From Brachycybe producta (lineage: Eukaryota; Arthropoda; Diplopoda; Playtdesmida; Andrognathidae): a stretch of DNA of 64,000 nt. Numbering within the stretch: the first letter of the stretch is position 1; every line of letters starts with the position of its first letter. The position numbers were made by a program, and so were the translations under genes. The notes beneath the pieces are model-generated. The model searched no databases, was not told the origin of the DNA, and worked only from the letters and a program-made list of their open reading frames with translations. Of this stretch, positions 1,909 through 59,551 are shown piece by piece. Location of the stretch: the NCBI GenBank assembly GCA_036925085.1, contig JAUPFP010000012.1, positions 4,835,460 through 4,899,459 on the forward strand, in the 5' to 3' direction.

Positions 1909-2391
1909 TTAGCTTTCGTCTCCGTGTTGGCCGTTTTTCGGAGGCACTGGTGGTTCTTTCGGAGGCACTTGAGGTGGTATGCCATTATTATCATCAACAC
2001 CATCAGCATCATCATCATCAACAACAAAGCTTTGATGGTCGTTTCTTTGTCCACTGAAAGCGATGCTAGATCTAAACGTTGGAAAACGTCCAGTCATGAC
2101 TGCATTTATATCAGAGTCAATTCCGTCTATATAAGACGCATAATCTGCGTTTCTCGGGTGGTCGTCGGAGCTTAAGGAACCGTCAGAGTGGTTGTTCTTC
2201 CTGAGATTTTTTTTCCAGTTTGTTAAAAATGACGGCGTCCTAAATTTTGAAAATCTTATCCTAGCTGGCCATTTGAGTTTAAAAAAACGTTCATCGTTTT
2301 CTTCTTTTTTGTTGTTCACTATTTTTATTGTCCAACAACCACAACATGTTGCAATTAATGCAACCAACATGAAAACTAGCAAAAACCTCAT
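1909..2391 (-). CDS. Putative secreted protein A, acidic Pro-rich tail
   Basis: A 160-residue frame of unrecognised family. Residues 1-19 form a typical signal peptide (MRFLL start, hydrophobic core, Cys-rich end), so the product is probably secreted. Residues 36-66 are basic and aromatic (FFKLKWPARIRF, then NWKKNLRKN). The second half is acidic, with an Asp cluster at 125-134, and ends in Pro-rich repeats (IPPQVPPKEPPVPPK, 138-152). The layout of signal, cationic aromatic stretch and acidic or Pro-rich tail matches the frames at 4392-4691 and 14790-15188. The untranslated bases upstream also share a TTGATTTAACAAAAAA stretch with the 4.4-kb frame. Similarity to those two is architectural rather than residue-by-residue, so paralogy is an inference. 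It could be one exon of a longer gene. Function is unknown; a host-defence or signalling peptide precursor is one possibility suggested only by composition. Confidence 0.5.
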   Translation of the reverse strand: MRFLLVFMLVALIATCCGCWTIKIVNNKKEENDERFFKLKWPARIRFSKFRTPSFLTNWKKNLRKNNHSDGSLSSDDHPRNADYASYIDGIDSDINAVMTGRFPTFRSSIAFSGQRNDHQSFVVDDDDADGVDDNNGIPPQVPPKEPPVPPKNGQHGDES

Positions 2392-2843
2392 AATTTTAGT
2401 TAGATTTTACTGTTTTTTTTTTTAAACTTTTGATTTAACAAAAAATGGAAAACAAAAATAATTCAGTATCTGGTATACAAAATGTTAAATTGCCGTCAGT
2501 CGTAAGCTTCGTTTGGGCAAATGTGTCCTGACTACATAAAATGGGATCTAAATTTAATATGACGACTTTTCCATTTTTTTTTTTTCTTCCTCAACATAAA
2601 ATAACCAATTTTCAATTCAGTTTTCCTTCAATTTTTTCTTTTAAAAATTCTAACAAAAAGTTAACGTCATGTATTATGACATTACCTTTTCTACTCTCAT
2701 ATTTGAATAAAAATAAATGTGTCTGTCATGATAACAATAACGCTTCCTTCAATTACGTCATTTTTAATTTCTTAAACGGAGAACAGTACAGGTGGCTAAT
2801 ATTCGAAACTAGTGGTAGACATGCTGCACACTGCAGTATTATT
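2392..2843. other. Upstream region of secreted protein A
   Basis: AT-rich with long T-runs. It would contain the promoter and 5' UTR of the minus-strand frame at 1909-2391. No TATA box stands out from the A/T background. Confidence 0.3.
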
Positions 2844-4164
2844 CAGGGGCGTAGCTAGGGAACCTCAAGACCCGCAACTGCGGGAGGGGGGGGGGGGGGA
2901 AGGGGCACAGGAGGTTTGGGGCGCAAAAAAAGAAATGAAAAGTCGATATATTTTTTAAAAATAATTAAATAAATTAAGCTAGTGATTCGGAATCACTCAC
3001 TTAATTTATTCAGTTATTTTCGAAAATTTGAATATTTGCCTTTGAATATTGCAAAAAAAAAAAAAAAACGGCCTTTAATACCTGGCCACAATATTCATAG
3101 AAGAGATTAAAACGTTAATTATCGTTAAAAAATCAACTTAAAGGTGCTAAGGTGGCTAGAATCGAAACCATGTTTTCGGAAATACAAAGTTTCGATTAAC
3201 ACGTCGTGCAGCACGTGCAGGCTGAGTTGTCTCGGTTCTTAATTCAACAACACATTGCAGCAATTAATCTTGTTTTTAAATGTTGATATTAGAATCGCTG
3301 CTTAAAATGAACTTTTAAAGACAGAATTTAAAAATAAAAATATGGTATGCTTCAAAGCCCCGTTTTCACGATGATAGTTGTCATGATAGTTGCTATCATG
3401 AGAACTATCATCGTGAAAACCACATGATAGTCACTATCGCGATAGCACTATCACAAGTATCTCGTTTGACTAGATAGTTGACAGTACTCTCCAGTGGCGT
3501 AGCTAGGCTTGGTTGCGTCCCCCCCTCCCGCCACTTAAAACTTTGCGCCCCCTTACCTCCCTCTTCAAATAGCCCTCATACTGGGTGGGGTGCTTTTTTG
3601 ATGAACGGCAGAACCGATCTGAACAACAATAGGAACAGTCGGAAGGTCAGGAAAGGTTAGGAAGTTAAGCTTGTTGCAGGGGGTCTGGTGGGCACACGGC
3701 CCCCCAGTTTTTAAAGAATTATTAAAACAAATTTGTCCATTGTTCCGACCGTTCCTCCCGTTAATCAAATTAGGAAACAGTCGAACTATGGACTAATGTG
3801 ATTTAATAATTCTTTAAAAACTAGAGGCCGCGCCCCCAACCACCCTGCAACAAGCTTAATTTAACTAAACCTAACCTTCCGACTGTCCCTACTATTTTTC
3901 CGACTATTCCTACCGTTGTTCCGCTGTGCCCATTGATCTCTATGAAGATTAACTGGTGCAAGTATGTAGTTTTTCGAAGTAAATATTAAATGAAAGTCGA
4001 TTTATTTTCGAAATTAACTGAATAAATTAAGCAAGCAATTCGGAATCACTCGCTTAATTTATTCAATTATTTTTTTGCGCCTCTAAACCTACTGCGCTCC
4101 TAAACCTCTTGCGCCCCCCCCCCCCCGCAGTTGCGGGTCTTGCGGTTGCATAGCTACGCCCCTG
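2844..4164. mobile_element. hAT-type non-autonomous element, composite
   Basis: It starts with CAGGGGCGTAGCTAGG and ends with GCTACGCCCCTG, the inverted ends of a hAT-type family whose intact sister lies at 7140-7743. Just inside each end sit complementary CCCGCAACTGCGGG / CCCGCAGTTGCGGG tracts. A second start of the same family (CAGTGGCGTAGCTAGGC) occurs at about 3492, so this is probably one copy inserted in or recombined with another. No clean 8-bp target duplication is visible, which suggests age. It encodes nothing recognisable. Confidence 0.65.
3363..3419. repeat. 57-bp near-perfect palindrome
   Basis: Two 27-bp arms separated by 3 bp. The outer arms are TTTTCACGATGATAGTT and its exact complement; one mismatch lies further in. 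It lies inside the hAT composite and is followed by more ATGATAGT/ACTATC motifs up to about 3480. It would form a stable hairpin or cruciform. Confidence 0.85.
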
Positions 4165-4391
4165 AGTAGAGTTAATTTAAAACTCGCATAAAAAGTTTAT
4201 TTTGGAGGGGAAAAAATATCAAGATGAAAATAACCTTAAGGGATTGTACGACCTCTTAATTTTGTCCCTGAAAGATAGAATAATGAAGAGTTCGTGGGGT
4301 CGTTTATACTTTAATACCCCCGAAGGAAAATCCTTAAAATCGTCATCACGAATGGCGCTGTGGCCTCGATTTCTCGGTCTCGATGCTGTTC

Positions 4392-4691
4392 TCATTCTTC
4401 TACTAAAACAGTCGCTGGATAACGTGAAAACGCTTGAGACGATCGTTGGTCGGTTCCGGGTAATTCCATACCCGGCGGCATTTCCTCGCTATAGGTAGGC
4501 CGATTGCCAACGGTATTTTTGTGGTGTTTTTTTTGTCTTAAATTTGATAGCCATTTCCATTTTTTTAAATTCAGCCAATCTGGTATTAGCTTCATACGTT
4601 CAGTGTCTTGTTCTGTATCGTTCATTGGTTTGAATGACCAACTAGGACATATAATTATTGCAAGCAACGTCAACAATAGCAACAACCTCAT
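4392..4691 (-). CDS. Putative secreted protein B, WK-rich
   Basis: A 99-residue frame of unrecognised family, paralogous to the frame at 14790-15188. Residues 1-19 are a clear signal peptide (MRLLLLLTLLAIIICPSWS), followed by an acidic spacer (NDTEQDTE), then a Trp/Lys-rich segment at 38-56 (PDWLNLKKWKW...RQKKHHK) and a Met/Pro-Gly segment (EEMPPGMELPG). The DNA similarity to the paralogue covers the whole frame plus both flanks. The C-terminus is shorter and different from that of the paralogue, so this copy may be decayed. Among the first ~55 codons the two copies differ by about 3 silent codons and about 13 replacing ones. The product is probably exported; a basic amphipathic peptide released from an acidic precursor is a possible reading, based only on composition. 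Confidence 0.5.
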   Translation of the reverse strand: MRLLLLLTLLAIIICPSWSFKPMNDTEQDTERMKLIPDWLNLKKWKWLSNLRQKKHHKNTVGNRPTYSEEMPPGMELPGTDQRSSQAFSRYPATVLVEE

Positions 4692-5566
4692 ATTTTAGGT
4701 AAAAACCGTTCTGTACGTTGATTTAACAAAAAAAAAAAAAACCGTTAAAAAAATGTTGCTAATCGTAAAAAATTCGAGACAAAAATTTGGATTAACTATT
4801 TAAATTTTGTTCGACCGATCACAGGCACACAGTTTTTATTCACCTGGAGAAATCGTGGCAAATCTAGCAAAACTCACTGGCACAGTAAAGTTTCCCCACA
4901 GCACACCCTTTTGTTAACAACTGGTTTAGTGGTTTAGTATGTAGGTATAGGAAAATTTCCTATAAGTTTAAACTGTTTATTTGAAAATTTTAAAATATAT
5001 TATTAGCACATTCAAAACTTAGTGGCACACCCTTTGAAAATCACTGAACACCAAAGATGTAATATCACCATGAACAAAATAGGTCTAATTAGGGTGTCTT
5101 TGAAAAGGACAACATATGATGTTCCAATTGTAAAATTCTAGTTGAAGATGAATTTGTTTCTACCAACAGCAAACACATTCAGAATACAACAAAACACGAA
5201 AAATTGGTGTAACCTTATAGAGAGAATATACTTGCGTCAATCTCCAAAATGTGCGTCACTTCAGAGAGACACAATCGTTGTACACATTTGGTTTTCACAC
5301 ATCTGCTGCTGTTACGAATTGTCTGTTTCTCCTACACCTCATTTCGGTTTATCTGTCATTGTTTGGGCTCGGATTTGCATGCAATATCAAAGCAAATGTT
5401 TCTCAATTTGTGACCAAAGTGCTAATTGTGAAGTAATCAAAAAGGCACGTTAGAGGCTAGATAAATGTCTTGATTACTATCAGTTGTCAACTGAAGTTCT
5501 AAACTGCATTGTTATTTCACAATTAGCCCTTTGGGGGCCACAGATTGAGAAACGTTTGCTTGATAT

Positions 5567-6230
5567 TGTAACAATCTGCCCTGGGTTGCTCACAGTACCC
5601 TGGAAGTTTTCCCGAAACTTACCAGTCCTGATTCCACTTTGGGTTGGGATCGCAGTCGTGGTTGCCTTAAAAAGAACCGTTTGGTTACGCTGGCCACCAC
5701 GGAGTCACCCCCACCGCATGTCGACGGTGGCACCACACACCAGCGCGAGTAACCGGCCGACGAGACAGATGAAGGACAGCAGAAACACCTCCCTGGAGTC
5801 ACACCCTCATTGCAGTAACTCCCCAGAAAGTAGACACGACACACAGGTGTACGGTAAAAATAAATAAGATTTATTTAACACCTAGTTGTAAAATACAATA
5901 ACTGCTGGCCAACTTGACCAGCAGGCAAAACTGTTAAACAATGAAATGAAAAAATCACAAATGACCTGGAGGCTGGCCTGGCCTCCAGCAGCAGGTTGTT
6001 TTCGGGTTTCTTGTCCACTGTACACTGTCCAGAATAATGGCCGACTTGACCATTATATCCCCTAGGCAACTTCACCTGGAAGAAGACAGTGACACCATCT
6101 GATCTCTCATCCATTGAACCCAATGGTGAGAGGTCTGCTGGCACCAATATGGCGTCCACCAGGCCACCTACCATCAGGAGTTTTAGTCTGCTCCTTCAAA
6201 TACATGAAGGAACCGTACTGGTTCGTCAGA
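5567..6230 (-). mobile_element. Solo LTR, Ty3/Gypsy-like fossil
   Basis: A 664-bp LTR-like unit on the minus strand. It is related along its length to the one at 13279-14057 (shared GAGCAGAC start, GTGAGAGGTC-type segment, AATAAA poly-A signal, and GGTAAGTTT near the end). A matching 4-bp duplication ATAT flanks it (5563-5566 and 6231-6234). No internal coding region accompanies it, so it is a solo LTR left by LTR-LTR recombination. Divergence from its sister suggests an old family. Confidence 0.7.
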
Positions 6231-6571
6231 ATATTGCATAAAAATCCTAGCCCTAGACACTGTAGGTCTGCTGCAGTTATTAGTAAACAAAAATTACCGA
6301 CATTTTCAAATACCTCCTAATTATGTTGTTAGTTTTTATTATTTTCAAATGAACCCGTATAAATTGTATGCTATATGCACTTCCTTAAAGTTATAGACAT
6401 TATGGAATAGAATATCAAAACCAGCCAATCTGACACAAATTGATCTACAGTAACTACAATGTCACTCTGGGTGAAGAATGAGCCATTGGAAACGCACATG
6501 TTATTCTACCTAGTTGTGTGATGAGGCTTCCAAGTGATTGCATGCAAACCAAAATAAAAACACGACACCAC

Positions 6572-6572
<1 letters not shown>

Positions 6573-6605
<33 letters not shown>
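6573..6605. repeat. (CA)n microsatellite
   Basis: About 15 CA dinucleotides in a row; simple slippage repeat. Confidence 0.9.
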
Positions 6606-6607
<2 letters not shown>

Positions 6608-6706
6608 GAAAGATTATTTCAGAAATTAACTCAACATTTTAATTTTTAATCCACATGTGTATACATGTAATTAAGATTTGTCTTAATTAAAACAATTATT
6701 TTCTTA

Positions 6707-6810
6707 CTAGAATGAAAGCCCGTCTTCGATGGTTGTGACAGTCTTTCATAATATCTCAGATTGATAACATATCGCGATATACAACATTTCGAGTAAATAC
6801 TTTGCTTGAT
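6707..6810 (-). mobile_element. Helitron-like 3' terminus
   Basis: Read on the minus strand, the end is a short GC hairpin (CCATCGAAGACGGG), then CTTTCATT, then the terminal CTAG followed by T in the flank. This is the standard Helitron 3' layout. The ~95 bp before it match the plus-strand copy ending at 61425. The 5' end was not found. Confidence 0.55.
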
Positions 6811-7139
6811 CCTGGTATAAGCCTGTCTTGCGTTGAAAAAATTAATTCACAAAAACTCCAGCCAGAACTTAAACCAAGGACCTCTCTCACTTATCTGCCA
6901 GAGACATAACCAATTTCGCTACCAATGTAAATTGCGAGATAAAAGGTGACCTTTACCATAACCCAATTGAGTTAATTTATTTTTTTGAAAAAACATGAAT
7001 ACAATAGAACAAGTTTTCCTGGCTGCCAACTTTATAAGTTTAGGGGTTCTGGTGAAATTTGATGATTTTTCACAAAAATGAGGTAAACGGAGGAAAATTG
7101 AAAATTCTAATGTAGCCTACAAAGAAATCCATCTAAAGA

Positions 7140-7743
7140 CAGTGGCGTAGCTATGACTTGGTTGCGCCCCCGCCGCGTAAAACTTTGTGCCCCCCTGGGA
7201 TGCTTAAAACGTTGCGCTCCCTTTAAGTTCCCCTCCACTTATCCTCATATTGGTGGGGGAGGTGCTATTTTGATGAACGGCGGATCAGTAGTAACAGTCG
7301 GAAGGTTAGGTTTAGTAAAATGAAGCTTGTTGCTGGGGGCCTAGGGAGCACAGCCCCCCATTTTTTAGCGTTATTAAATCAAATTTGTCCATTTTTCCGA
7401 TCATTCCTCCCCGAACAAATTACGGAACAGTCAGAACAATGGACTAATTTGATTTAATAAGACCTCAGACCCCTGCAACAACTTAATTTTACTGAACAAA
7501 ACCTTTGGACTGTTCCTACTATTTTTCCGACTGTTCGTACCGTTGTTCGGACCGTTCCGCTGTTCATCAAAATAGTACCCCCTAAAAAAAATTTCTATGC
7601 ACAATAAACGAAATGAAATTCGATTTATTCAATTATTTTTGAAAATACATCGACTTTCATTTCTTTTTTTGCGCCCCCAAACCTCCTGCGCCCCCCCCCC
7701 GCCCCGCAGTTGCGAGTCTGGCGGGTCCCTAGCTACGCCACTG
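7140..7743. mobile_element. hAT-type MITE with perfect 8-bp TSD
   Basis: A 604-bp non-coding element with inverted ends CAGTGGCGTAGCTA / TAGCTACGCCACTG. It is flanked by a perfect 8-bp duplication TCTAAAGA (7132-7139 and 7744-7751), which fixes both boundaries and supports the hAT superfamily. The interior resembles the element at 2844-4164. Confidence 0.9.
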
Positions 7744-7751
7744 TCTAAAGA

Positions 7752-8599
7752 TGTGTATACTGGTTAATTTTCACGATTCTAGAGTGTGTAGTTTCCAAGA
7801 ACATTCATGCACAAAGGGCTGGAGTGAAGGAGAGATAGAGAAAGTCAGCCATTAGAAAACTGGATGCGGTGCAGTTGCTTCAAGGTTAACACGGCTCTGA
7901 TTCTAAAACAATATCTGAGTTGATTTTCATGTGATGCAAAGAATGCCTCAGATGGTAGATTGCAGTTGGATATTTTTTTGGTTCAGATTATTAGAATTAA
8001 AAGGGTTTTTATCGAAAAACAAATTCATTTATTGTAACACTTAGGCCATATTCTATAACATTGCATAAGTCAAAGTGAAACTTAAACAAAGCTAAACTTA
8101 AAAGCTCTTCATAATCTTATTATCGAGTTTTGTCTTGCGTCATGGTTTAAGCTTAACTTTTATTTTAAAGAACGTTTTTGAATATGGCGGTTTATACGGT
8201 CGTCTGATTGTTAAGTATATAAAAATTAATGAGTTTAGCACAAGCTTTGACTTAAAAATCGCTAAGAAGACGACCTATGAAACGAATAGCCTGACAGGGT
8301 CGCTTTAAATTGCCATCTGCCATATGTAGTCTAACCAGGATGTGAAATTCGATGTTAACTTTACAGTTGTTGTTTCGTTGGCAACTAATCTACATATATC
8401 CCTGCTGTTAACTAGGTAATTTTCACTGTCTGAAAAGTGGTGACGGTCTAAGGTCTGTTGATGGTAAGGTATCGGGTGTCGGCAACCCGTGCCCAGATCC
8501 GACCCGTGTGGTTTTTAAGGGCGCGCAACGGGGCTGAACTTGGACACCCGTCTTCAATAGAACCTCGTTTTAAACTTGACTGTAAAAAGTTTTACACCC
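7752..8599. other. Intergenic with repeat fragments
   Basis: Weak traces only: a CCATATTCTATAAC / GAATATGG pair at about 8046-8185 that may be the ends of a small MITE, and a hAT-like GTGTCGGCAACCCG start at about 8479. No gene seen. Confidence 0.35.
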
Positions 8600-8910
8600 T
8601 CAGGAAGTAAACTCTTGGCGTACTTTCTTGCACCTTCCACTGCTTCCGTAAGTATGTACAGTATGTGACAATAGGTAACGTGATGAGCAGCAAGCATGGG
8701 GAACAAGGAAGAGTGTGTGTGAAATATTATTCAAATGAAGTTTTAAAAAAGTGAACTGCATATTATTTCCCCATATATATATATATAACAGAAGCAGAAC
8801 TAGTGGGAGGAGAGTGAGGCACTTGTTTCAGGCCGCACAAAGCTTACTGGCGTTTGGCGGAGAAATGAAATGCTTCCTTACATGTATGCTTACATTAATT
8901 GATTTTATTT
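8600..8910. repeat. Dispersed repeat (inverted copy at 18.03-18.47 kb)
   Basis: The segment reading CTAGTGGGAGGAGAGTGA, GGCCGCACAA and ACATGTATGCTTACATTA reappears in reverse complement at 18030-18470. A TACAGTA/TGACAA segment and the AGCAGCAAGCAT segment match as well. It is non-coding and the family is unknown. Confidence 0.7.
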
Positions 8911-9062
8911 AAGAGCCTAGATACATGCAGACGACAATGAGACAAATGAGTGTTCTTATATGGTGTTACTAAAATTGCAAGAAATCGCCTCACAATCCCT
9001 CCATTAAAATACAGGAAAGCGCAAAATACAATAAAAAGTATTGTTCTTTACGTGTTCGATTT

Positions 9063-9645
9063 ACATCATTTTTCAAAAGGTCCTTCTATTTTTAAACAAG
9101 GTTCAAAATCGTTCGTTTTTTAACCCCATGTTAAATCCCTTTGGATCAAAAACCGTTCCACAAACATTTGAAAAACCCTCGTTAAAACGATTTAGAACAA
9201 TAACAAATAATTAGCATATACTTTCATCTATTGGCTTCACGATGTTTTCTTTTTATAAATTTTGAAAAAGTCCTTCTATATTTTAATAACGTTTAAAATC
9301 GTACATTTTTAACTCCATGTTAAGTCCCATAGGAGCAAAACACCGTCCCACAAACGTTAGAAGAACTCATTAAAATGATTTAGAACATCCAAAAAAAAAT
9401 TAGCACGTACTTACACATGTCTATTGCCTTCACGGTGATTCTCTTTTTCTAAATTCTGAAAGGTCCTTTAATTTTTAAACAAGGTTCAAAATCGATCGTT
9501 TTTTAACTCCACGTTAAGTCCCGTAGGACTAGAAAACCGTCCCCCAAACATTTGACGAACTCCCATTAAAAACGACTTAGAACAATCACATGAAAATTAG
9601 CACGTGCATTAATCTATTGGCTTCACGATGTTTTCTTTTTATAAG
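9063..9645. repeat. ~190-bp tandem repeat, about 3 units
   Basis: Three successive units each carry, in order: AAGGTCCTT-type start, CAAAATCGTTCGTTTTTTAA-type core, CCATGTTAA/CCACGTTAA, CCGTCCCACAAAC-type segment, GATTTAGAACA and GGCTTCACGATGTTTTCT. The units are clearly diverged from each other, so the array is old. It may be a satellite fragment or an internal part of a larger transposon. Confidence 0.75.
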
Positions 9646-10086
9646 CTTAGCACGTGAACTTATTTTTCTTTTAATTATTATGTGACTTGAAACCTGGAGA
9701 AAAAAACGTTAAAAAACCGTTGTTCAATCAAAAACGATCGCAGCGCTTACATTCGGAGAAATCTTGAACTAAATGCTGTATCAAGCCTCTTTATAAATTG
9801 TAATATTATTTTTCTTGTTGCTTGCTTATTTCAATTTTTTAACAAAATAAATAGATTGATAAGAAGGCACTGTATTGGGTAAATTGGGCGGCCGCAGATA
9901 CTGGTAAGAGAGCGCTTTGCCCCTCTTTCAGAAAATTGATGTTTGGCTAAAACCCTAGCTGAGACATAAGATAAAATTAAATTTTATGAAACAATGGCTA
10001 AGCCTGGGTGGTTTTAAGGCTATTTTTGTCCAAAGTAGTTATTTATAAATTTAGTGTTTGTCACTCGCCCCCTATCAAGATAGAAG
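9646..10086. other. Intergenic, no gene seen
   Basis: AT-rich with nothing recognisable on either strand. Confidence 0.4.
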
Positions 10087-11417
10087 ATAATATCTTAAAC
10101 CATTACCCTTGGGGACTGGCAACTGTGAAAATTAGTGTTTAGATATAGTGGTAACAATAGCATCAGCAGCGCCACTTTAGTGGGAAAAGTTTGTACAATA
10201 ATACTGTACAGCATGTGACACCACCCACACATGTGCCAGCTGCACACCATAACAACTCCTTTCACTGGATGGCACCCTGTGGTGTCTAAAACTGCCTTGT
10301 TTTGAAAGATATCAAATTCGATGAGAATTCAGTCCAAATTCTCACAAATTTGGACACTTTAAACAATTCTAGAAAAAAAAGTTTCTAAAAATAGAAACTT
10401 CTAAAGAGAAATTTTGAAGTTTCTCACAATTGAAAATAGCCTAATTTTCTGGCATTAATCAAATTCATCTAAGAATTTGCTACCAACTAAGGAGATATTT
10501 GGGAATCTGGACTCACCATTAGTCAGTCAGACCTGTGGGTAAGTCCTGGGTGACAGTGACCCCTCCTAAGGGGCCAAATAATAAAAGCACCTGCACAGGG
10601 CAGGTTCGTGGCACTCAAATATAATATTTTACAATGTTAAGTCAATGGAAACATGTAAATTGTGTGTCAAGAGAGTTTCGGAGGCTCAGAAGTAGTCTTC
10701 ATAAGGGCTGATCGTTGTTGTGCTGATTGCTTTTGGACTAATCTTTCGGGATTATGTTTACCATACATAGTGCAATCAAAGTCCCAGTTGATACTATTTG
10801 GGACTTTTGAAGTAGAAATCAATCGCTTGTATTTTACATCACTTATAATGTACCGCATTATCATGTAAAATAAATCAGTTTAATCGCTTACAAAGAGTTT
10901 TTCTTGTTCGCGAAGACACCTCTGGGAGGTGTAGAGTCATCGCTGTTTTTTTTAAATTGTGGGAACTAGGGAGTCTCGTCTACACGGAAACCCCAAAAAG
11001 ATCGACAACGCCAGGGAGTCCGACTCCAATCAGAAGCAGAGGCACGACCAAGGGCCACGCATCCAGGTCAACAAGTAGACCTGCATCACCCGGCAGGTCA
11101 AAGAGCCTGAGCTCGGAGAGTGTGGAATGTTGCACCACCCGAACTCAACCGGCTGGTCTGAGACCAGCCACCCAACAAAAAAACAGTCGAAATCGAGAAA
11201 AACAGACTGGAGGGGGTCCAGGCATATTACAAAATGCTGGATGGGGTCCAGCTCTGCTGCAAGTATGAAAGGTAGGGCAACGATTGCACTTACGGGCTTT
11301 TGCAATTAAGTCACTGGAAGGCACTGTTGTAGTTTTCACCAGGCCATGCGAGAACATCCTTTGCCATTCAATACATTACGAGTTGCCAGTCCTGGAGAGT
11401 AATGGTCACAGATAATA
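10087..11417. mobile_element. TIR element, family K copy 1
   Basis: Inverted ends of ~36 bp: left AAACCATTACCCTTGGGG then ACTGGCAACT; right complement GTGACCATTACTCTCCAG then GACTGGCAACT. A second member with the same ends spans 39436-40470. The interior holds a GC-richer island (10930-11270) unlike the flanks. No transposase is recognisable. Confidence 0.6.
10990..11269 (+). other. GC-rich coding-like island, possibly a captured exon
   Basis: This island inside the family K element is richer in GC than its surroundings. One forward frame gives a Ser/Thr/Arg/Pro-rich stretch (around SRSTSRPASPGRSKS). Another frame, open for ~38 codons after a stop near 11159, gives VQAYYKMLDGVQLCCKYER and then meets a donor-like AAAG|GTAGGG at 11266-11275. 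That combination looks exon-like, but no acceptor with a pyrimidine tract is clear and I do not recognise the protein. It could equally be repeat DNA that happens to be open. Confidence 0.25.
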
Positions 11418-11599
11418 TATCTATAGAAGATAACGTTGTTTAACTTTGAAGATTTTTACAAATTTAACAGATTTGTAAAAAAAGTTTCATTTGCTGTGCT
11501 TGTGAAGTTGAGAGAAGACTTATTTATTACAATGCATCAACAAAATAATGCATGCACTACACAACTCCATTGATTTTCAGTGTTATGAACATGCTGGAT

Positions 11600-11745
11600 A
11601 GATCTCAGAGAAGAAGAAAATGAATACCGTAATTAATCAAAAACAGAACTGAGAAATAACATGAAGTTTATGTATTTGAGGCTATTTTCTAACCTATTTA
11701 GGATTCTAGTTCTTTATCAAACTTAGTCTATGTCATTCTCACTTG
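11600..11745. repeat. Dispersed repeat (inverted copy at 17.63-17.79 kb)
   Basis: The segment including AATAACATGAAGTTTATGTA, GAGGCTATTTTCTAA and TATCAAACTTAGTCT returns in reverse complement at 17630-17790. Non-coding. Confidence 0.65.
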
Positions 11746-11798
11746 CCATATTCTCATCCTACGATTCTTACTTCTAACGCAAAAAAGTCACGAATAGT

Positions 11799-12390
11799 GC
11801 TGCAAGATTGGTAGACAGGTGCAGTTAAATTTACGTCTAGGGCCATGCTGGCCTAAGACACTCTGTTTCCGCCTTCATTTTATATCCACAGCCTGGGGGT
11901 TCACTTGTACCCCAAATGAATATTTCCGCCCTCTCCTCTTCCAGAGGAGATGCCAAAGCACAAACCAAATCCTTGTTTTGGTGTTGGCAGATGGAAACCC
12001 ATCTAGGCACACGGTCTCTTGGGCATGGGTACACCTGTGTAGGTGCACACAGGCCCAAGGTATAAAGGACCGTGTCTTGATTGATTCAGGGTCAATTCTC
12101 TGATATTGAAATATGAAATAAGTCATTCAATGGTCTGGTGGCTAAGCAACACCGCAGTCATAACTTTTTTCTGTTTGTTGTATGTCTCTGGTTGTGTGCA
12201 ATAAATACGTAACTCGTCAACCTGCATTCGTCTTGCCTGTTATCATTCTTTCTCTTCTCGCCAATTGAATCTATCGGAAGTACCAAAGGGAATGACCCCT
12301 GCACCATTTGGAATCAGGCCTAAATCACTCACACTTTCAGTGAAAGGGATCTAGACCTGAGTCTCCCGTAACAGGGGCTCTACACTATTA
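11799..12390 (+). mobile_element. LTR-like fossil related to the 50-60 kb Gypsy LTR
   Basis: It carries an LTR-style promoter and poly-A arrangement. The segment GGTGCACACAGGCCCAAGG followed by TATAAAGGACC (about 12040-12071) closely matches the TATA region of the LTRs at 50189-50876 and 59552-60239. An AATAAA signal follows at 12200. No internal coding sequence is present, so it is read as a solo LTR. The ends are approximate because no target duplication was found. Older and diverged. Confidence 0.5.
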
Positions 12391-13005
12391 CATTCTCATG
12401 CTGGGTGAACTTCAATGGGAAACACTAACAAACCGAAGAGCTGAGCATTGCCTTGTCCTTCTGGAACGCTTGCTAGCTCCAGAGACCAAAGCATTGTACA
12501 TAACTGTTAATATAAACACCTTATAAGTAGACATGGTCATCCGATGCTTATTAAAGAAATAAAAGCAAGAACTGATTCATATTTGTCGTCTTTCTTTCCA
12601 AATGTGTTAAGACTTATGGAATTCTAGACCTTCCAGCAATTAGTTCTGTTTTAGGATGAATTCAATTTGTTGGTGATTTGTCTAAACCTTATCTAAATTA
12701 CAACAAGTTATTATATAACTGAGTTGAATTGAATGGTTGTCAATAGCACATTGTGGTGAACTTGTTCTTCAAGTGTTTATTCAATTAGTTATCAATTGCA
12801 ATAAATATAGTGCTATAAATAGTATAACTCTTTCAAAAGACATTTATTTAGTTGATGATTATGTTACATATACAATACTACAGTGATAAATACATTCATG
12901 AAATTGGTTACCATGTATAGATTGATTGTAATTCACCTTGGTTTTTTTGGGGGGGAGGGGGAAAAACTGTAAAGTGTTTTAGAAACTTGCAGGGTAGCTC
13001 AATCA
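12391..13005. other. Intergenic, no gene seen
   Basis: AT-rich; a short G-run at about 12948-12960. Nothing else recognised. Confidence 0.4.
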
Positions 13006-13278
13006 CTTAAAGAGACAATTACCTCCTGAAATTTCTTGTGTAAATATTGTCAAGACTTATTCAATGATTACCAAAACGATTTTTCTAAAATTTAAAATAA
13101 GTGATTAATATGATTTAAAAAAATTAAAAATCAGTTGACTTCATGTAAATGAACTTTTATCAGATAGATGGGCCACGAAACAACAGACATTGGCAACAAA
13201 ACACCCAAAAAATGTACTCCTCTACTGAAATTCCGATGTGTTGCGATCACCTGACATTACTTCATTTGAATGTACCAT

Positions 13279-14057
13279 TGTGGCAACCTGGTCTGCTCAA
13301 TTTTAATTTTTGATTGAGCAGACGAATTTCCCTATGGTGTTCTGCCTGACAGCTACAGTAGGCTGTTGGGACGGACGCCATTTTGGTGCCAGCAGACCTC
13401 TCACCATGAAGTCTATGGGTGAGAGGTCAGATGTGACCACTGTCCCCTCCAGGTGGAGTTGCCTGGAGGTTTTCTGTGGCCTAGTCAGCCACAGGATCTG
13501 GGCAGTTGGTTGTAGGGAGCTGGTGTGACTAGACCTGTGGGTGGAGGTCAAGTGGACCTCCACTGTCCGGCATTTGGGTCTCTCTTCCTTTGTGCCTTGT
13601 TGGCCTGTTGGCCTTCCGTTTTGTATAGTGCCTGGCTGGTCGAAGTTGACCAGCCAGTTCTGTAAATATTACTGCCAATCGTCGTAAGTGTAATAAAAAC
13701 ACTGTTCATCGTTTTATACTTTGTGTTGTGTCTTTTTATTTGGGGAGTACCGCAGAGGGTGGGTTGTCCAGTGGGGGGTCAACGCCACAAGCACCGGCCG
13801 AAACAAGACGGTAAACCGTCTTGTTTCGGCCGGTGCTTGTGTCGGCTCGCGGTAGAACAAATTCTCGGCGTCGCGGCGTGGTTTTCGACCGTGTCTGTCG
13901 AGGGTGGCTCCAGGGAGCTGACACGTCTCCAGGAACACCGTGTGGAGGCGGCTATGGGTACGGTCCTGTCCCCGTGAGGAGCCGATTGACGGTAAGTTTT
14001 TACGTCCATTTCGAGATTCAATTTACCGGTATTGTAATGGTCCGTCGGGACGTTACA
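13279..14057 (+). mobile_element. Solo LTR, Ty3/Gypsy-like fossil (sister of 5567-6230)
   Basis: A 779-bp LTR-like unit starting TGTGGC and ending GTTACA, flanked by CCAT on both sides (13275-13278 and 14058-14061). It shares the family landmarks of 5567-6230: GAGCAGAC near the start, GTGCCAGCAGACCTCTCACC, a poly-A signal (AATAAAAACACTG at about 13690) and GGTAAGTTTTT near the end. A GC-rich hairpin at 13787-13840 is present here but not in the sister. Confidence 0.7.
13787..13840. repeat. Perfect 26-bp inverted repeat, 2-nt loop
   Basis: The left arm (GCACCGGCCGAAACAAGACG within it) is the exact complement of the right arm, with only AA between. It is very GC-rich compared with the window and lies just after the poly-A signal of the solo LTR. 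Confidence 0.9.
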
Positions 14058-14359
14058 CCATGGATTTAATATTTGAATTATTCTACATGGAAGGTCATAT
14101 TGAGATGAATATGAATAGGGAATACATGTATTTGATTAAGGAATTCTGGAAATGTGAGGTGACAACTTTTGCCACAAACATTGGGGTGACTAGACTTTCT
14201 TTTTTGGAAATTTAAAATGGTGTCGTTTGGTGACTCAGGAAAAGTCACTTCATTTTTTTATGTACTTTTAAATTTTAAAAATCGTTTTTGTTATCTTTAG
14301 GTAAGTCTTGACAATACTTGTGAAAATATATTTCTGGAGGTAATGGTGGTCTCTTTAAG

Positions 14360-14654
14360 GCTAATTTTTCATGTTGATTTCTTTCCAAATCAACTTTTTG
14401 TAGGCAAAAATTTAAATAATACATCGACTTCTAAACGTCTTGAACTTAAAACTCTCTGTTTTTCTTACAAGATTCAGTACAAGAATTATAAGTAATAATA
14501 TTGCTGTGAATTTTGCACAGTTTCTTGCAACAAAAAAAAAGACAAAGATTAGGGTTTTATGTAAGACGGTGTCCAAAAACTACTTTAAAGCTCTCGTTAT
14601 ATTTATATGTGACTACTAACGCAATGCATGCGACAATATGGAACAGTGACGTCA
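14360..14654. other. Intergenic, no gene seen
   Basis: AT-rich, nothing recognised before the duplicated block begins. Confidence 0.4.
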
Positions 14655-14789
14655 AAAAAAATATCAACATGAAAATAACCATTTATAAGTGCTTGTGCGA
14701 CCCCTCTAGTTTCTAAAATAAATTAAAATTTCTTTATTTTTTGTAACTGAAAACTAGAATAATCAAGAGTTTGAGGGTCGTTTACACTT

Positions 14790-15188
14790 TTAATTCGCCA
14801 AATTATAGTCCTGAAAAGCATCACCAATGACGCTGTGGTGTGGATCATGTCTACTTGGTAACGGGTACCCAATGATGTTCGGATCCCTAGGCTCAGTCTT
14901 TGGATATCGTGAATATATGTGGTATGTTTGTCTGTTGATTCCAGGTAATTCTATACCCGGCGGCATTTCTATACCCGTCGGCATTTCCTCGATATGGGAA
15001 TTCCTGACGTTTTCGTGGTGTTTCTTTTTTCGTTTTAAAAGTGATGGCCATTTCCAGTTTTTAAAATTCAGCCAATCTGGCATTAGCTTCGTGCGTTCAG
15101 TGTCTTGTTCGAAATCGTTCACTGGTTTGATTGACCAACTGGGACACATAATTATTGTAAGCAACGTCAACAATAGTAACAACCTCAT
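14790..15188 (-). CDS. Putative secreted protein C, WK-rich
   Basis: A 132-residue frame, the fullest member of the small family. Residues 1-19 form a signal peptide (MRLLLLLTLLTIIMCPSWS). An acidic spacer (NDFEQDTE) follows, then a Trp/Lys-rich segment (PDWLNFKNWKW at 37-47, LKRKKKHHE at 51-59), then two near-repeats of MPTGIEMPPGIELPG (69-83), a Tyr-rich SRYPKTEPRDPN segment and a His/Asp tail. There are no Cys pairs beyond the signal, so a disulfide-stabilised fold is unlikely. The poly-basic KRKKK run at 52-56 could be a processing site. The start Met is fixed by the signal peptide and by DNA alignment to the 4.4-kb paralogue. The family is unrecognised; secretion is well supported, the role is not. 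It may be a single-exon gene, as no splice signals interrupt the similarity. Confidence 0.55.
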   Translation of the reverse strand: MRLLLLLTLLTIIMCPSWSIKPVNDFEQDTERTKLMPDWLNFKNWKWPSLLKRKKKHHENVRNSHIEEMPTGIEMPPGIELPGINRQTYHIYSRYPKTEPRDPNIIGYPLPSRHDPHHSVIGDAFQDYNLAN

Positions 15189-15660
15189 ATTTTAAAAACC
15201 GTTTTTTAACAAAAAATGAATTTTTTTTTAAAAAAAAAAAACACCTTAGTTCAATGTTTTCAATTTAAAACAAAATATTGCGAGTCGTAAAATTTGAGAC
15301 AAAAATTTCGGTGAACTATTTAAATTTTACAATTACAATTAGTACTCTGCTAGCAGCCAAATAGGCATATGACAGAGGAACATAAAAGTCCACGTGCAGC
15401 ATTAAGCATTTTCAACCACACAATACATGCACATATATATATATATTAAAAAAAAATGAATATACAATTATCAATCCCACAAATCTCCACGCGCAACTTT
15501 TAAAACGATTCTAGTCTATATAACAATTGTACAGATGTTTCAACAAAAAAAAATCTGTCTTGATTTAATGAAATGCAAAAAACGTCACACATTTACTGTA
15601 CGTCATTTTCAATTTGGTGAATATAGACCCCCCATTGGCAGATAATATTATTAGGAACTT

Positions 15661-15874
15661 ATACTTTGTACACACATGAGTTACAGGAATTCAAATTAAA
15701 TGTGTTTATAGGTGAATTATACGGAATCCAGTTAAGGACATGAACCAAATAAAAATTGACTTTTATTATTAATATTTTAAATTGAAATACTAAATCAATA
15801 TTTTGTCAATAGTTTATTTATTATATTTAAGTATTAACTCAATATTTTAAGAGATTATTAACTGAATAAACTTA
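15661..15874. mobile_element. MITE family M, copy 1 (truncated)
   Basis: It carries the TTGTACACACATGAGTTA end and the ACGGAATCCAGTTAAGGACA, AATAAAAATTGAC and ATTTTGTCAATAGTTTAT segments of a family with five other copies here. It stops inside the ATTAACTGAATAAA segment, so the distal end is missing. It lies in the insert within the duplicated block. Confidence 0.8.
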
Positions 15875-16410
15875 AGGCAGGATTTTGTGGAGGTCAATGA
15901 ACTTGTGGTCAACTATCGAACTAGAGATTTTCAATTAAAATTTAATGTATTTTTTTTAAAAATTGGCATTCACACTGACAATCATGTTTTTTTTTATAAA
16001 AAAAATAACTGTGTGTGTTGATCTGATAGTGTGACATCGGCTTTTAATCAGTGCAACGTTTATACTAATAATTATTTGTGTAGTTTGTTTAAAAAAAAGT
16101 ATCGAACAATAATTGAAATAATTGAAAAGTGGAATTTAAAAATTAAACAACGAAAATCCATACAGTAGTAATTAGTTTTTGTGAACTCCACCTATATTTT
16201 TTTTTTCAAAAGTTGCTTTTGGAATAACGCTTTTCAATTTTTGAACATAATAGCCAAATATGGAAAAGATCTCCTGGGCTAGAAGACGATGGTCAATGCA
16301 AGTCGATTCCATCCAAAAATAAAAGAGAAAACAAATACATTCTAGCTCCAAAATCGGGAATCGAATTCAGGAACTCTGGTATGGTTTTACAGTTGTAAAT
16401 TCGGCGGTGG

Positions 16411-16475
16411 TTAGTGGTGGTGGCAAGCTTGTAAAAACAACGAACACCTCATTTTAGCGACTTCGTAAAAAAAAA
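16411..16475 (-). pseudogene. Possible remnant of another family start
   Basis: On the minus strand a CTAAAATGAGGT context with a preceding T-rich run resembles the start region of genes B and C (CTAAAATATGAGGTTG). Only the first few codons could correspond. It is adjacent to the point where duplicated-block homology resumes. This may be an old partial copy or chance. Confidence 0.2.
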
Positions 16476-17310
16476 ACATGAACAGGAAAACAAACGTGGC
16501 AACCGTCCTGCTGGAGAAATCGTGGTACACTTAACAAAACTCACGGCACAGTTGAGTGTCACCACAGCACAGCCTTTTTAAACAACTGGTTTAGTGTGTT
16601 TTTCCAATGAAATTCAAATTTATTTGAATATATTAAAAATATATTAGCACATTCAGTATAACATTCAAAATTTGGTGTCCCAACTTAACAACACTCACGG
16701 GCACACTTTTTGAAAAGCACCTCTTGAGCACTAAAGATGTGATATCACCATAAACAAAATAGGTCTAATTAAGGTGTCTTTGAAAAGGACACCATATTAT
16801 GTTGCAATTGTACAATTATAGCGGAAGATGAATTTGTTTCTACAAAAAACACAAAAAAAAAAATGATGACACCTTATAGAGAATATACTTGCATGAGTCT
16901 CCAAACTGAAACATATGCGTCACCACCTCAGACACCCAATCGTTGTTCTCATTTGGTTTTCATTCATCTGCTGCTGTTACAATTCGTCTGTTTCTCCTAC
17001 GCTTCCTTTTGGTTTTTATCTGTCATTGTTAGGGTTCGGTTCTCAACTTATGGCCAAGGTGCCAATTGTGAAGTAATAATCATCACCAGAAGTACAACTG
17101 CAATTATGCTTTTTTTTGTAATCAAATGGCGCGTTAGAGGCTAGATGTCTTGGTTAATATCAGTTGTTTGCTATGCACATTTCCTTAAAGTTATAGACAT
17201 TATTGAATGGGAATATCAAAACCAGCCAATGGGACACAAACTTAATCTAATTTGGGTTGAAGAATGAGTCAATGGAAACGCACGTGTTATTCTATCGAGT
17301 TCCGTGGGGA

Positions 17311-17629
17311 GGCTATAAAAATAAGAGTGAAAGAAAATGGGTATCACCTAAGTACGATCAGGGTTCATATTAAAAAAGTGCAAAAGTGATCAGAGTCCAA
17401 ACCCATGTAACCTTCCCTTTCTGTTCTCTAGTCAATTGGAAAACATAAGGTTGTGAAACAATATTTGCACTTTGTTCTCACAATTTTGGACAACCCTGAG
17501 GCAAGGATATTTTACCCATTCCCAACAACTTAAAACCTGTAAACTAAGTAGAAAGTGCAGACAAATTTGTGGGAAGGGGGGTATCAAACCCTCCCCCTCC
17601 CTCTCTTACTACTGCCATGATTGTTATTT
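17311..17629. other. Intergenic, no gene seen
   Basis: Contains a C-rich CCCTCCCCCTCCCTCTC tract at about 17590. Nothing else recognised. Confidence 0.4.
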
Positions 17630-19039: not shown

Positions 19040-19532
19040 GCAAACTAAGTTAATTACTCTGAATGTACCTTGAACCAAGCATGCTGAATAAAAATTGCTG
19101 TCTGGTTGAAACGTGAAGTCAGATGACATTTCACATTGAACTGCTTCTTTTAATTGCTGTTAGTCATTTGCTACCAGCTGTGGAGAGTCATTTTGAATTC
19201 AATTTTTAACGTTAATTGGCATAATTTCGATTTGATTTCCCATTGGAAATATTTGATACAGTGTTTTTGTTTTTTTACTTTCATCATTGAACACTAAGGA
19301 AACATTAAGAAATCATCAGATTGAAATTGTGTAACCATTAATCAAAAAACTTCATAATAAAGAGACGTGTTATTCCCATTACTTTTATGTGATTACTTAT
19401 GCTTGTGTGTGTGTCATCCAGTAATATTCCATCAACTGAAAGAGGCAATAAAGGGTTGTTTTTGCATCTAATTAAATAGCTTGGAAATGATTTGCTTAAA
19501 AGACGTTTAGATCTATTGTAATACATGTATAA
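19040..19532. other. Intergenic, no gene seen
   Basis: AT-rich without recognisable features. Confidence 0.4.
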
Positions 19533-19836
19533 TACCTTGTACACACATGATTTAAATGAATTCAAATTAAATGTGTTTAGGTTGAATTATACGGAATCCA
19601 GTTAAGGACATGAACCAAATAAAAATTGACTATATTACTAATATTTTAAATTAAAACACTAAATCAATATTTTGTCAATAGTTTCTATATTATATTTAAG
19701 TTTTAACTCAATGTTTTCAGATTATTAACTGAATAAATTGAATTCGATATTTTGTTTGTTTGTCCTTCACAGGGCTCTGTAGAACACGTTTATTATTTAA
19801 ATGCATTTAAATTATCAGGTGTGTGTACTAGGTATA
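19533..19836. mobile_element. MITE family M, copy 2 (full length)
   Basis: A 304-bp element with ends TACCTTGTACACACATGA and the complement of TACCTAGTACACACACCTGA. It contains the family order: GAATCCAGTTAAGGACATGA, TTTTGTCAATAGTTT, ATTATTAACTGAATAAATTG, GTCCTTCACAGGGCTCTGTA, TTATTTAAATGCATTTAAA. No coding capacity. Confidence 0.85.
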
Positions 19837-21441: not shown

Positions 21442-22028
21442 CAGGGTGGGCCAAAAAAAGTGACAACATCGCATAAAAAGTAATATAATTACATCAAAAT
21501 TTGTTTAACTGTATCCATAACAGCTTAAATTGTTTACTCATTTACTTACTTACCTATTTAGCTCTATGATGTCTTTATTTCGACAATTTCCGGGCGCCAT
21601 CTTTGGTTTTAATATGCGAATTGTTTACATCAGCAGGTTAAATTTTTTTACCAAGAATGACAAAAATTACCGCGGAAGACCGTATTCTGATTAAACATTT
21701 GCGAATTAAAAAACAGTGGGGTGCTAGGAGAATGACCACTGAGTTTCCAAACAAAGTCTGGAGCATAGCTAGTGTTAGTCGGGTTATCAATAAAATTGAC
21801 AACGACGGTACAACAGAACGTAAACCCAGAAGTGGTAGACCAAAATCTGCCAGAACACAACAGACTATTGAGCGGGTGAGTGGGCTGATCTGCAGTCAAG
21901 ATGATGATCCTCACAGTCACAAAAGTCCACGGGAAATACAAACAAAATTACATGAAACAATATAACTAAGTTATATTTTTAAAGAACTCGTATGCTACAA
22001 AATGTTCTCATTTTTTTGGCCCACCCTG
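21442..22028 (+). mobile_element. mariner/Tc1-type element, internally deleted
   Basis: A 587-bp element with inverted ends CAGGGTGGGCCAAAAAAA / TTTTTTTGGCCCACCCTG, flanked by TA on both sides (21440-21441 and 22029-22030). Its only coding sequence is the N-terminal part of a transposase at 21657-21965; the catalytic half is missing, so it is non-autonomous. Confidence 0.9.
21657..21965 (+). pseudogene. mariner-type transposase, DNA-binding domain only
   Basis: 102 residues. Residues 5-50 fit the first helix-turn-helix of Tc1/mariner transposases (TAEDRILIKHLRIKKQWGAR ... SVSRVINKIDNDGT). The linker SGRPKSARTQQT at 59-70 corresponds to the GRPR-like linker, and the beginning of the second helix-turn-helix follows (PREIQTKLHET). 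The D,D,D/E catalytic domain, normally about 200 further residues, is absent, and the frame runs directly into a few AT-rich bases and the right inverted end. The open frame still covers nearly all of the domain, which may mean a fairly recent deletion or retention of a DNA-binding, possibly repressor-like, product. Translation as a host protein is not shown. Confidence 0.8.
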
Positions 22029-22360: not shown

Positions 22361-22910
22361 TGATCGGGTCAGGATAAAAAGATGAAGGAATGAACGGGAT
22401 GAACATTGGGGGAACTCTAAAACCCGACACAGAATGCCTATAGAATAAGATGAACACTATCATGGATGAACACACATTTTAAAAGGACGAACAGAGAGAA
22501 ATAAAAGGATGAACATACTTTAAAGGGATGAACATGGTCTTCAGGGGGATGAACATCGTTTTAGGGGGGGATGAACATGGTTTTAGAGGGGATGAGCATG
22601 GTTTTAGTTTAGGTTAGGTTAGGTTAGGTAACCGAACCTAACCTAACCGAATTGAACCTAACCTAACCGAACCGAACCAAACCTAACCTAACACCATAAA
22701 ACCATGTTCAGCCCCCTAAAACCATGTTCATCCCTTTAAAGTATGTTCATCCTTTTATTTCTCTCTGTTCATCCCTTTAAAATGTGTGTTCATTAATTAA
22801 AATATAGTGTTCATCTAATTATATATGCATTCTGTGTCGGATTTTAGAGGTTACCCCAATGTTCATCCCGTTCATTCGTTCATCTTTTTTATCCTGATTC
22901 GTCCTGATCA
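22361..22910. repeat. 550-bp foldback element
   Basis: The two halves are inverted copies: TGATCGGGTCAGGATAAAA at the left, and the right end reads the complement of TGATCAGGACGAATCAGGAT. Arms carry repeated GGATGAACAT motifs; the centre (about 22608-22695) is GGTTAGGTTAGG opposing CCTAACCTAACC. Non-coding, non-telomeric. Confidence 0.85.
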
Positions 22911-39612: not shown

Positions 39613-40320
39613 AAGGGGGGCAAACATTGAAGAAAAAAATCATGTACGAGATTCACTAAGATTTGCAAAGATTCATCCAGATTCACTAAGATTTGCAAAG
39701 ATTCATCCAGATTCACTAAGATTTGCAAAGATTCATCCAGATTCACTAAGATTTGCAAAGATCCATCCAGGTTCACTAAGATTTGCAAAGATTCATCCAG
39801 ATTCACTAAGATTTGCAAAGATTCATCCAGATTCACTAAGATTTGCAAAGATTCATCCAGATTCACTAAGATTTGCAAAGATTCATCCAGATTCACTAAG
39901 ATTTGCAAAGATTCATCCAGATTCACTAAGATTTGCAAAGATTTATCCAGATTCACTAAGATTTGCAAAGTTTCATCCAGATTCACTAAGATTTGCAAAG
40001 ATTCATCCAGATTCACTAAGATTTGCAAAGATTCATCCAGATTCACTAAGATTTGCAAAGATTCATCCAGATTCACTAAGATTTGCAAAGATTCATCCGA
40101 TTCACTAAGATTTGCAAAGATTCATCCAGATTCACTAAGATTTGCAAAGATTCATCCAGATTCACAACAGATCGTACATATAAAAAGTCATTTTACTCTT
40201 TTATCCGCGTTTTACTGGATTCCCAAAATAGGCTGAAAATCTGAAAATCCAGTAAAACGTGGAAAAACTAAAATGCCTTGCCATACAGTACATGATTCAT
40301 CCCCCAATGTCTTCCCCTTT
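39613..40320. mobile_element. MITE family Q, copy 1 (expanded)
   Basis: Left AAGGGGGGCAAACATTGAAG; right, in complement, AAGGGGAAGACATTGGGGG. The downstream half (AAAGTCATTTTACT..., CAGTAAAACG) matches the copy at 63774-63979. The copy is inflated by the 30-bp array. Confidence 0.75.
39650..40164. repeat. 30-bp minisatellite, 17 units
   Basis: The unit is GATTCACTAAG ATTTGCAAAG ATTCATCCA, repeated about 17 times with few differences. 30 is a multiple of three, so it opens long artificial frames on both strands. Confidence 0.95.
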
Positions 40321-50077: not shown

Positions 50078-50188
50078 CAATGCACCTTCGCGTATATAGT
50101 AGAGTGTTGACTATCGAACAATTTGGAACAAATGAGAAATTTACTTCCTCAGAAAAAAAAAATGCTTGAGTCGCAATGCTCCACTATG
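50078..50188. repeat. 111-bp direct repeat, left copy
   Basis: Reads CAATGCACCTTCGCGTATAT at its start and GCTCCACTATG at its end. It abuts the left LTR of the Gypsy element and is identical to 60240-60350, which abuts the right LTR. Confidence 0.95.
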
Positions 50189-50876
50189 TGTGAGCTTTTG
50201 ACATCAACCAATATTTTATTACCAACCTTTAGATGACATTTTCTACTTTTCGTTTCTTCTCTGAGCAGTATGACACCTGCACAGAGAAGATCCGAGCTGT
50301 AGAGAGAGCTGGATGGAGATAGATTGAAGTCACTCTTCTGCATGGGGGTGAAATCAATGCAGGAGAGTGGCGGCCATCTCTCTCTCTTCCGGTTGATGCT
50401 GATATACATCTTCTCCATCGGTATTCCGACTAGAGAAGATGTTGTAGCTGCTGAGAATCGTATAGCTCCTGCCCTATGAAACCTCCGGCCTCTGAAGAGA
50501 AGTTATTAGCATAAAGACATAGAGACAACGCTACTTCTTATTACAACACTTTTATTCATTCCTTGTAAGAAGTACAGATACAAGGGTGAATAGTAAAATA
50601 CTAACTGGAAATCCTCAGGCCCATGATTTGGAATGTATCGCAAAAACAGGCAAAGGAAAGAACTGAGGAACAAAGAGGAACATGGTCCTTTTATACCTTG
50701 GACCTGTGTACACCTGCGAGGCGTAACCAGGTCCAAGTGACCATGGTCCTTTACGTATCAATCCGCCACTTGGGCATGAGTCAGAAAGGTGAGTCAGAGA
50801 GGAGGGAGGGACGGTTGAGAGTTGTTTACCCCCCAGGCTATGGTTTTGGCGGGATCACGATTTACAGGGTGTTACA
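50189..50876 (-). mobile_element. 3' LTR of the Gypsy element
   Basis: Starts TGTAACACC and ends GCTCACA in the element's sense. It contains a TATAAAAGG box (about 50690-50698) and an AATAAAAGTG poly-A signal (about 50550). The inner edge is a purine-rich AAAGTTGGAGGGTA (50877-50890), a plausible polypurine tract. Confidence 0.9.
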
Positions 50877-51215
50877 TACCCTCCAACTTTGCTTGGAGTA
50901 CGTCCTCGTACTCCAGCCAAGGGTGGAAGGTTTTCAAGTTACGCAGCGGGGAGACATGGGTGGCTGAGGACTTACCGTGTACAGAGGTGGTTATGGAAAG
51001 GCACTGGCACCGAAGTGTCAGCGCCCTTAAAAATGCAAATTCTGAAAATAAAAAGGCAAACACAATTAATACTCGCTGGGTGGCGAGTTCCTATGGAAAT
51101 TTACAAGAAATACTTATTTATACATAAAGCAGTTATAACAGAATTCTTTTCTTTTTTTTTTTTATATTTTTCGAGCTCACCACCCCAATGGGCGGTGACC
51201 ACACGGTTTTCTAAT

Positions 51216-52454: not shown

Positions 52455-52561
52455 GTTGTTGTTTGTTTATATTGGTGTGTGTCATCAAGTGACCAATGTG
52501 ATGATATAAACAACCGAAAGAAAAAATTTAGGTTGTGTGGGTTGTTGATAGGGTTATTGGT

Positions 52562-59452: not shown

Positions 59453-59533
59453 AAGCCTCGTGAGGCACAATCACGAGACTTAGGACAAAGGACGGCTTCT
59501 GTTTACAGGTCGGAGAAGGCAGATGGAGCTATA

Positions 59534-59549: not shown

Positions 59550-59551
59550 AA

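Follow-up and report, generated by a model that had tools for sequence, protein, structure and literature searches.

A candidate tandem family of secreted cationic peptide precursors at a repeat-rich locus

Introduction

Clavanin precursors are small pre-propeptides with a basic core, and botryllin, 158 amino acids long, comprises a signal of 23 residues and a mature peptide of 37. In PMC7387483, precursors of the linear cationic alpha-helical peptides of Ciona are laid out as signal, cationic and anionic regions, in that order. Propeptides of spider linear peptides, according to PMC8290080 and PMC7889660, end in a processing quadruplet motif with arginine at position -1 and glutamate at -2 to -4, and the XXER form of this motif makes up 31% of 133 spider propeptides (PMC8290080). 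Here we describe three minus-strand open reading frames, named A, B and C, found in a 64,000-nucleotide stretch of genomic DNA (hereafter the window; contig JAUPFP010000012.1, positions 4,835,460-4,899,459), and compare their predicted products with these precursors. The genome we searched comprises 295.3 Mb in 442 contigs, and the window is part of its contig C12.

The reading we prefer, with a confidence somewhat short of even, is that A, B and C make up a small family of tandem, apparently intronless genes that encode precursors of secreted cationic peptides, each with a core that would be released at a Glu-Arg site and with host defense as its likeliest role. We regard them as a good candidate family rather than a demonstrated one.

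Three frames with a shared precursor layout

The frames span 1909-2391 (A, 160 amino acids), 4392-4691 (B, 99 amino acids) and 14790-15188 (C, 132 amino acids), where a preliminary description of the window had placed them. Measured from stop to stop they extend over 165, 100 and 133 amino acids, respectively, with the open frame beginning before the ATG by 5 codons in A and by 1 codon in both B and C. The MRxLL start that had been described as common to the three is present in each, and of the words listed as shared by B and C, MRLLLLLTLL, CPSWS, EQDTER and PDWLN are found in both; KWKW occurs in B only, C having NWKW in its place, with WKW common to the two. Upstream of B, a donor-like site near 4842 and an acceptor-like site near 4713 delimit a candidate 5' leader intron.

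With segment borders placed by eye, all three predicted precursors consist of a leader, a propiece ending in Glu-Arg, a cationic Trp/Phe-rich core and an acidic/Pro-rich tail. In A, the leader (residues ~1-19, 2335-2391) is followed by a charge-neutral propiece ending in NDER (residues 20-35, 2287-2334), a cationic core with a net charge of +10 and 2 Trp (residues 36-66, 2194-2286) and an acidic/Pro-rich tail with a net charge of -12 and 10 Pro (residues 67-160, 1912-2193). B has a leader (residues 1-19, 4635-4691), an acidic propiece of net charge -2 ending in DTER (residues 20-32, 4596-4634), a Trp-rich cationic core of net charge +7 with 3 Trp (residues 33-60, 4512-4595) and a tail of net charge -3 with 5 Pro (residues 61-99, 4395-4511), which is shortened relative to that of C past a 4-base insertion or deletion (indel). 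The corresponding segments of C are a leader (residues 1-19, 15132-15188), an acidic propiece of net charge -2, also ending in DTER (residues 20-32, 15093-15131), a Trp-rich cationic core of net charge +6 with 3 Trp (residues 33-60, 15009-15092) and a Pro-rich tail of net charge -3 with 10 Pro (residues 61-132, 14793-15008). The best 28-residue charge was higher than in composition shuffles for A (P = 0.0014) and B (P = 0.028), and the signal was weaker in C (P = 0.080).

Leader-like starts are rare among comparable frames. By a criterion of hydrophobicity plus an early arginine, which was chosen post hoc after the A, B and C proteins were known, 3 of the 27 ATG-initiated frames of at least 90 amino acids in the window qualified, and these were exactly A, B and C; in 20 windows simulated with a second-order Markov model, the mean was 0.05 such frames per window and the maximum was 1. 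To this extent the earlier proposal for the frames is supported: they look like a clustered family of precursors of the secreted type, in which a cationic segment is combined with acidic extensions.

If the preferred reading holds, the signal peptide would be removed first, and the acidic or charge-neutral propiece would be cleaved after the Glu-Arg pair kept in A, B and C, which would free a peptide of ~28-31 residues that is basic and rich in Trp and Phe. The tail, acidic and Pro-rich, would balance the charge and keep the precursor harmless until its own removal, and the freed peptide would most likely act on microbial or other membranes as a host-defense peptide. The family would have evolved as other secreted defense peptides do, with a slowly changing leader and propiece and a rapidly changing core end and tail, and one copy, B, would be left without most of its tail. 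Cationic peptides whose precursors are built in this way may include new antimicrobial or membrane-active molecules.

Resemblance to described precursors

The layout agrees in part with those of two published sets of precursors. NDER in A and DTER in B and C, each standing before the cationic core, match the spider motif of arginine at -1 with glutamate at -2 to -4, given borders drawn by eye and a cleavage that is predicted. Like the latarcin/cupiennin-type precursors of spiders, A, B and C would have a short leader (18-24 residues in spiders), an X-X-E-R propiece end and a Cys-free cationic linear segment. Unlike them, they carry an acidic/Pro-rich tail and, by eye, lack a second, linker-joined cationic peptide; their propieces are short (13-16 residues), and set against the acidic spider propeptide the propiece charge is -2 in B and C and 0 in A, making the propiece of A neutral. 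The Pfam search of A, B and C returned no family above its cutoff, and the sequences were not compared directly with those of spiders.

The Ciona precursors Ci-MAM, Ci-PAP and their relatives, compared by layout only, share the order of signal, cationic and anionic regions and a leader conserved within the family. They differ in that A, B and C have an extra propiece before the core, a Pro-rich tail and weak amphipathicity, and the mitochondrial code of the present genome is not the ascidian one. Ascidian styelins/botryllin and clavanins are likewise small secreted pre-propeptides with a basic core, again by layout only, but belong to another animal group. We do not claim membership in a spider or Ciona peptide family, because the searches revealed no kinship in sequence and the helix test was empty. 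That test applied the helix limits of PMC7387483 to windows of A, B and C; each of the three has windows within the limits, but their moments are 0.11-0.42 and proline is often present. The screen is nonetheless uninformative, because more than half of the control frames pass it too, as detailed below.

A Glu-Arg propiece end like that of spider linear-peptide precursors is also in keeping with a different sort of secreted protein that pairs a basic core with an acidic tail, for example a component of venom, saliva, silk, cuticle or tubes. Pro is abundant in the tails, and the AlphaFold2 model of C is unstructured there; mitochondrial genes suggest that the genome is that of an arthropod. Against such products stands the lack of any Pfam match of A, B or C reaching a family cutoff, and we consider them a rather unlikely explanation.

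Local duplication and the relationship of A to B and C

Self-comparison of the first 20 kb of the window showed that B and C sit in two copies of one segmental duplication. The copy with B, on the minus strand at 4211-5487, contains the gene, a short 3' flank and an upstream region; the copy with C, also on the minus strand, is in two parts (14656-15328 and 16511-17167). These are separated by an insertion of ~1.2 kb (15329-16510) that is present in copy C only and splits the 5' region of C. An additional matching piece pairs 6358-6528 with 17158-17314, and the far end of the segment with B (~5353-5439) is a genome-wide repeat as well. Within the insertion, a repeat at ~15661-15888 recurs at 19532-19755 and in the 40-kb left flank of the window. 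A putative fourth copy, in decay and beginning at ~16456, was rejected (local score 24, compared to a shuffle mean of 22).

The part of A related to B and C, at 2253-2450 on the minus strand, covers the 5' leader, signal peptide and propiece. Comparing DNA, A and B gave a local score of 60, compared to at most 38 among 300 shuffles, over a region that reaches from the 5' leader into B as far as codon ~32, while the A-C score of 48 was below the shuffle maximum of 54. At the protein level, z was 9.1 for A-B and 9.9 for A-C, values reached by none of 2,000 shuffles. The nhmmer score for A is not independent, A being part of the model. On these alignments, A is a more distant relative of B and C, and is related to B at the DNA level. 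The preliminary description mentions neither this relation nor the segmental duplication around B and C.

The same three products could be read as signaling peptides or neuropeptide-like hormones, encoded by real secreted-peptide genes and released at basic sites. Basic clusters that could serve as convertase sites are present in all three (KRKKK in C, RQKK in B and KK in A), and MP-x-G-I-E-like units are repeated in C, where an 18-bp tandem repeat at 14949-14987 accounts for part of the repetition. By eye, however, A, B and C have in common no peptide that is repeated and ends in an amidation-type site, and the core is strongly diverged between A and B/C; peptide hormones usually conserve the mature peptide best. 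We find this explanation doubtful and quite unlikely.

Coding signals in the comparison of B and C

The alignment of B and C offers a signal in its indels. Codons 1-51 contain none, whereas the rate upstream predicts 5.4 (Poisson P = 0.0045), and the indels in codons 52-90 have lengths of 3, 3, 5 and 7 and keep the frame overall. Past these codons, the 4-base indel shifts the frame of B, which ends 33 residues short of C. Over the 82 aligned codons there were 25 amino-acid changes, compared to 30.0 expected under neutrality (P = 0.044), and a stop codon was present in 88% of neutral simulations. Taken from sequence comparison, these results give modest support for selection on the B/C protein.

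A number of other results weigh against our preferred reading, beginning with the B/C comparison itself. Counted without gaps, base differences amounted to 13% in the distal upstream region (75/569), 15% in the proximal 5' region (17/111), 11% in codons 1-51 (17/153), 28% in codons 52-90 (32/114) and 22% downstream (38/176). The frame, at 11%, is not clearly more conserved than the upstream flank, and the substitution rate alone fails to mark it because the rates of frame and flank are similar and that of codons 52-90 is higher. An argument that B and C are far more conserved than their flank (72% BLAST identity upstream, binomial P = 2.9e-5) relied on an identity that includes gaps, and was dropped because the gap-free differences upstream are so close to those in codons 1-51. 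Amino-acid changes in those 51 codons numbered 11, near the neutral expectation of 11.8 (P = 0.43). Ratios of nonsynonymous to synonymous substitution rates (dN/dS), calculated by stretch, were 0.39-0.62 with NG86 and 0.83-1.12 with YN00; over approximately the first 60 codons, the NG86 value of the real frame (0.58) was equaled by one wrong, reverse-strand frame, the five wrong frames giving 0.58, 0.66, 0.97, 1.12 and 1.25.

Further points on the same side concern A and the predicted peptides. Leader-free comparisons of A with B and C gave z values of only 1.7 and 1.9 (scores reached by 137 and 116 of 2,000 shuffles), and because of these low values the relation of A to B and C rests on the leader; for the A-C tail, z was 1.0. 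Helical amphipathicity is low, and the cationic cores form no clear amphipathic helices; 13 of 24 control frames likewise have a window within the published helix limits. AlphaFold2, run on C with two sequences, returned a mean predicted local distance difference test score (pLDDT) of 54.5, and the only helices of at least 4 residues were at 2-14 and 26-32; a fold this uncertain does not lend itself to comparison with structure libraries. Finally, the tail of B is frameshifted and the 5' region of C is split by the insertion. Whether all three genes are intact is uncertain, because B lacks most of the tail of C through the 4-base indel; B may be shortened and C may be cut off from its former promoter, so that some of the cluster may be decaying.

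These last features are what one would expect of decaying copies, in which at least one frame formerly coded for protein and is now a pseudogene held open by luck. The 4-base indel in the B tail and the ~1.2-kb insertion upstream of C are in keeping with decay, as are the YN00 dN/dS values near 1, and the neutral probability of meeting no stop over 82 codons, 0.12, is not negligible. Decay is harder to square with the indel-free codons 1-51, with length changes that keep the frame and with leaders intact in 3 of 3 frames, and we consider it improbable.

A bolder version of the family interpretation, which we hold to be unlikely but not far-fetched, is that A, B and C represent a new lineage-restricted arthropod family with a 'charge sandwich' of Glu-Arg propiece, Trp-rich basic core and acidic Pro-rich tail. 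It would bring spider-style Glu-Arg processing to another kind of animal, and the three copies would mark stages in a course of birth, divergence and loss of the tail. If the genes are expressed, the locus would show the birth and decay of such genes via local duplication in a repeat-rich region.

Searches for relatives and further copies

When the genome was searched with C, only B and C were found. B retrieved itself and C, and otherwise three matches at E-values of 0.12-2.4, while A retrieved itself and one match at 2.4; leader-region DNA returned the same places only. Because A did not retrieve B or C, members as distant as A could have been missed. A profile of the A, B and C leader regions detected no extra copy in the window (best other E-value 0.082) and none in the 40-kb left flank (best E-value 0.27). 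In a pattern search, control matches were as numerous as hits.

Among 5.8 billion predicted proteins, a search that depends on shared exact words and was queried with A and C, leaving B out, found no relative at E-values up to 1 for either C (2 candidates scored) or A (9 candidates scored), in a set whose coverage of animals was not assessed. Pfam matches stayed below cutoff: for B, Imm17 at residues 3-33 (E-value 0.0029, 17.9 bits, compared to a cutoff of 25); for A, a permease family (E-value 0.31); and for C, no row at all. PDB sequences gave nothing credible for C (E-values 0.24 and 0.4), and six sequence words from the A, B and C proteins did not occur in the literature searched. The preliminary description had not recognized the family, in agreement with the absence of Pfam matches above cutoff and of relatives of A and C in the large protein search. 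So far, the putative family is known from this locus only; if expressed, its members would be secreted orphan peptides of a kind overlooked by searches for homologs.

The same searches bear on a further explanation, that A, B and C lie open by chance in duplicated DNA without coding function or else belong to a transposon. The region is filled with repeats, ATG-initiated frames of at least 90 amino acids are more common in the window than in simulated windows (27 versus 9.95), and one wrong frame has an equally low NG86 dN/dS. Leader-like frames, on the other hand, are rare in the simulations, and the searches found 1 copy of A and 2 of the B/C sequence in the genome, unlike the surrounding repeats. 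Transposon origin had been named beforehand as a finding that would overturn the peptide-family proposal; no genome-wide repetition of the frames was seen, which speaks against it. We judge chance or transposon frames very improbable.

Other features of the window and genome

Elsewhere in the window, an element resembling a long terminal repeat (LTR) retrotransposon occupies 50078-60354. Its LTR-like direct repeats (50179-50876 and 59542-60239) are 99.6% identical over 698 bases, and between them lie minus-strand open frames of 416 and 1,577 codons that, by eye, have the look of protease, reverse transcriptase and integrase. At 39649-40165 a 30-base unit is repeated in tandem 17.3 times (97% matches), with several frames open, and a frame at 21642-21962 resembles, by eye, a transposase fragment. 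At 22629-22692 there is an interstitial TAACC (TTAGG-type) array of 12.8 copies with 81% matches; TTAGG-type arrays resemble arthropod telomere repeats.

Outside the window, a small-subunit (SSU) ribosomal RNA match on contig C57 (locus L040, 68-2798) is 2,731 bases long, compared to 1,831 positions in the Rfam model. It is followed at 2799-5025 of the same locus by internal transcribed spacer 1 with degenerate SSU pieces (7 matches, 71-81% identity). The 18S start was found at 51 places in the genome, with a spacing of 28-50 kb on C57. A literature search on unusual 18S genes returned nothing.

The mitochondrial gene COX1 is on contig C442 (locus L049), where its frame contains TGA 10 times but no further stop codon. 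AGA stands at positions that we take to be serine (it is glycine in the ascidian code) and AAA at positions that we presume to be lysine; this codon use fits the invertebrate mitochondrial code. An ascidian origin, considered because of the precursor style, was rejected on account of the AGA codons. The COX1 protein has an arthropod look, with which the TTAGG-type array in the window agrees, and the genome is probably that of an arthropod. With gene names assigned by eye and one low-scoring tRNA call inside cox1 omitted, C442 carries trnY, trnP, a nad1-like frame, trnI, trnM, trnC, trnW, cox1, cox2, trnK and trnD, a rearranged-looking order. No tRNA was found between cox1 and cox2, and past trnD are frames that we read, again by eye, as atp8 and atp6. 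COX1 also has matches on contigs C1 and C17, which may be nuclear insertions.

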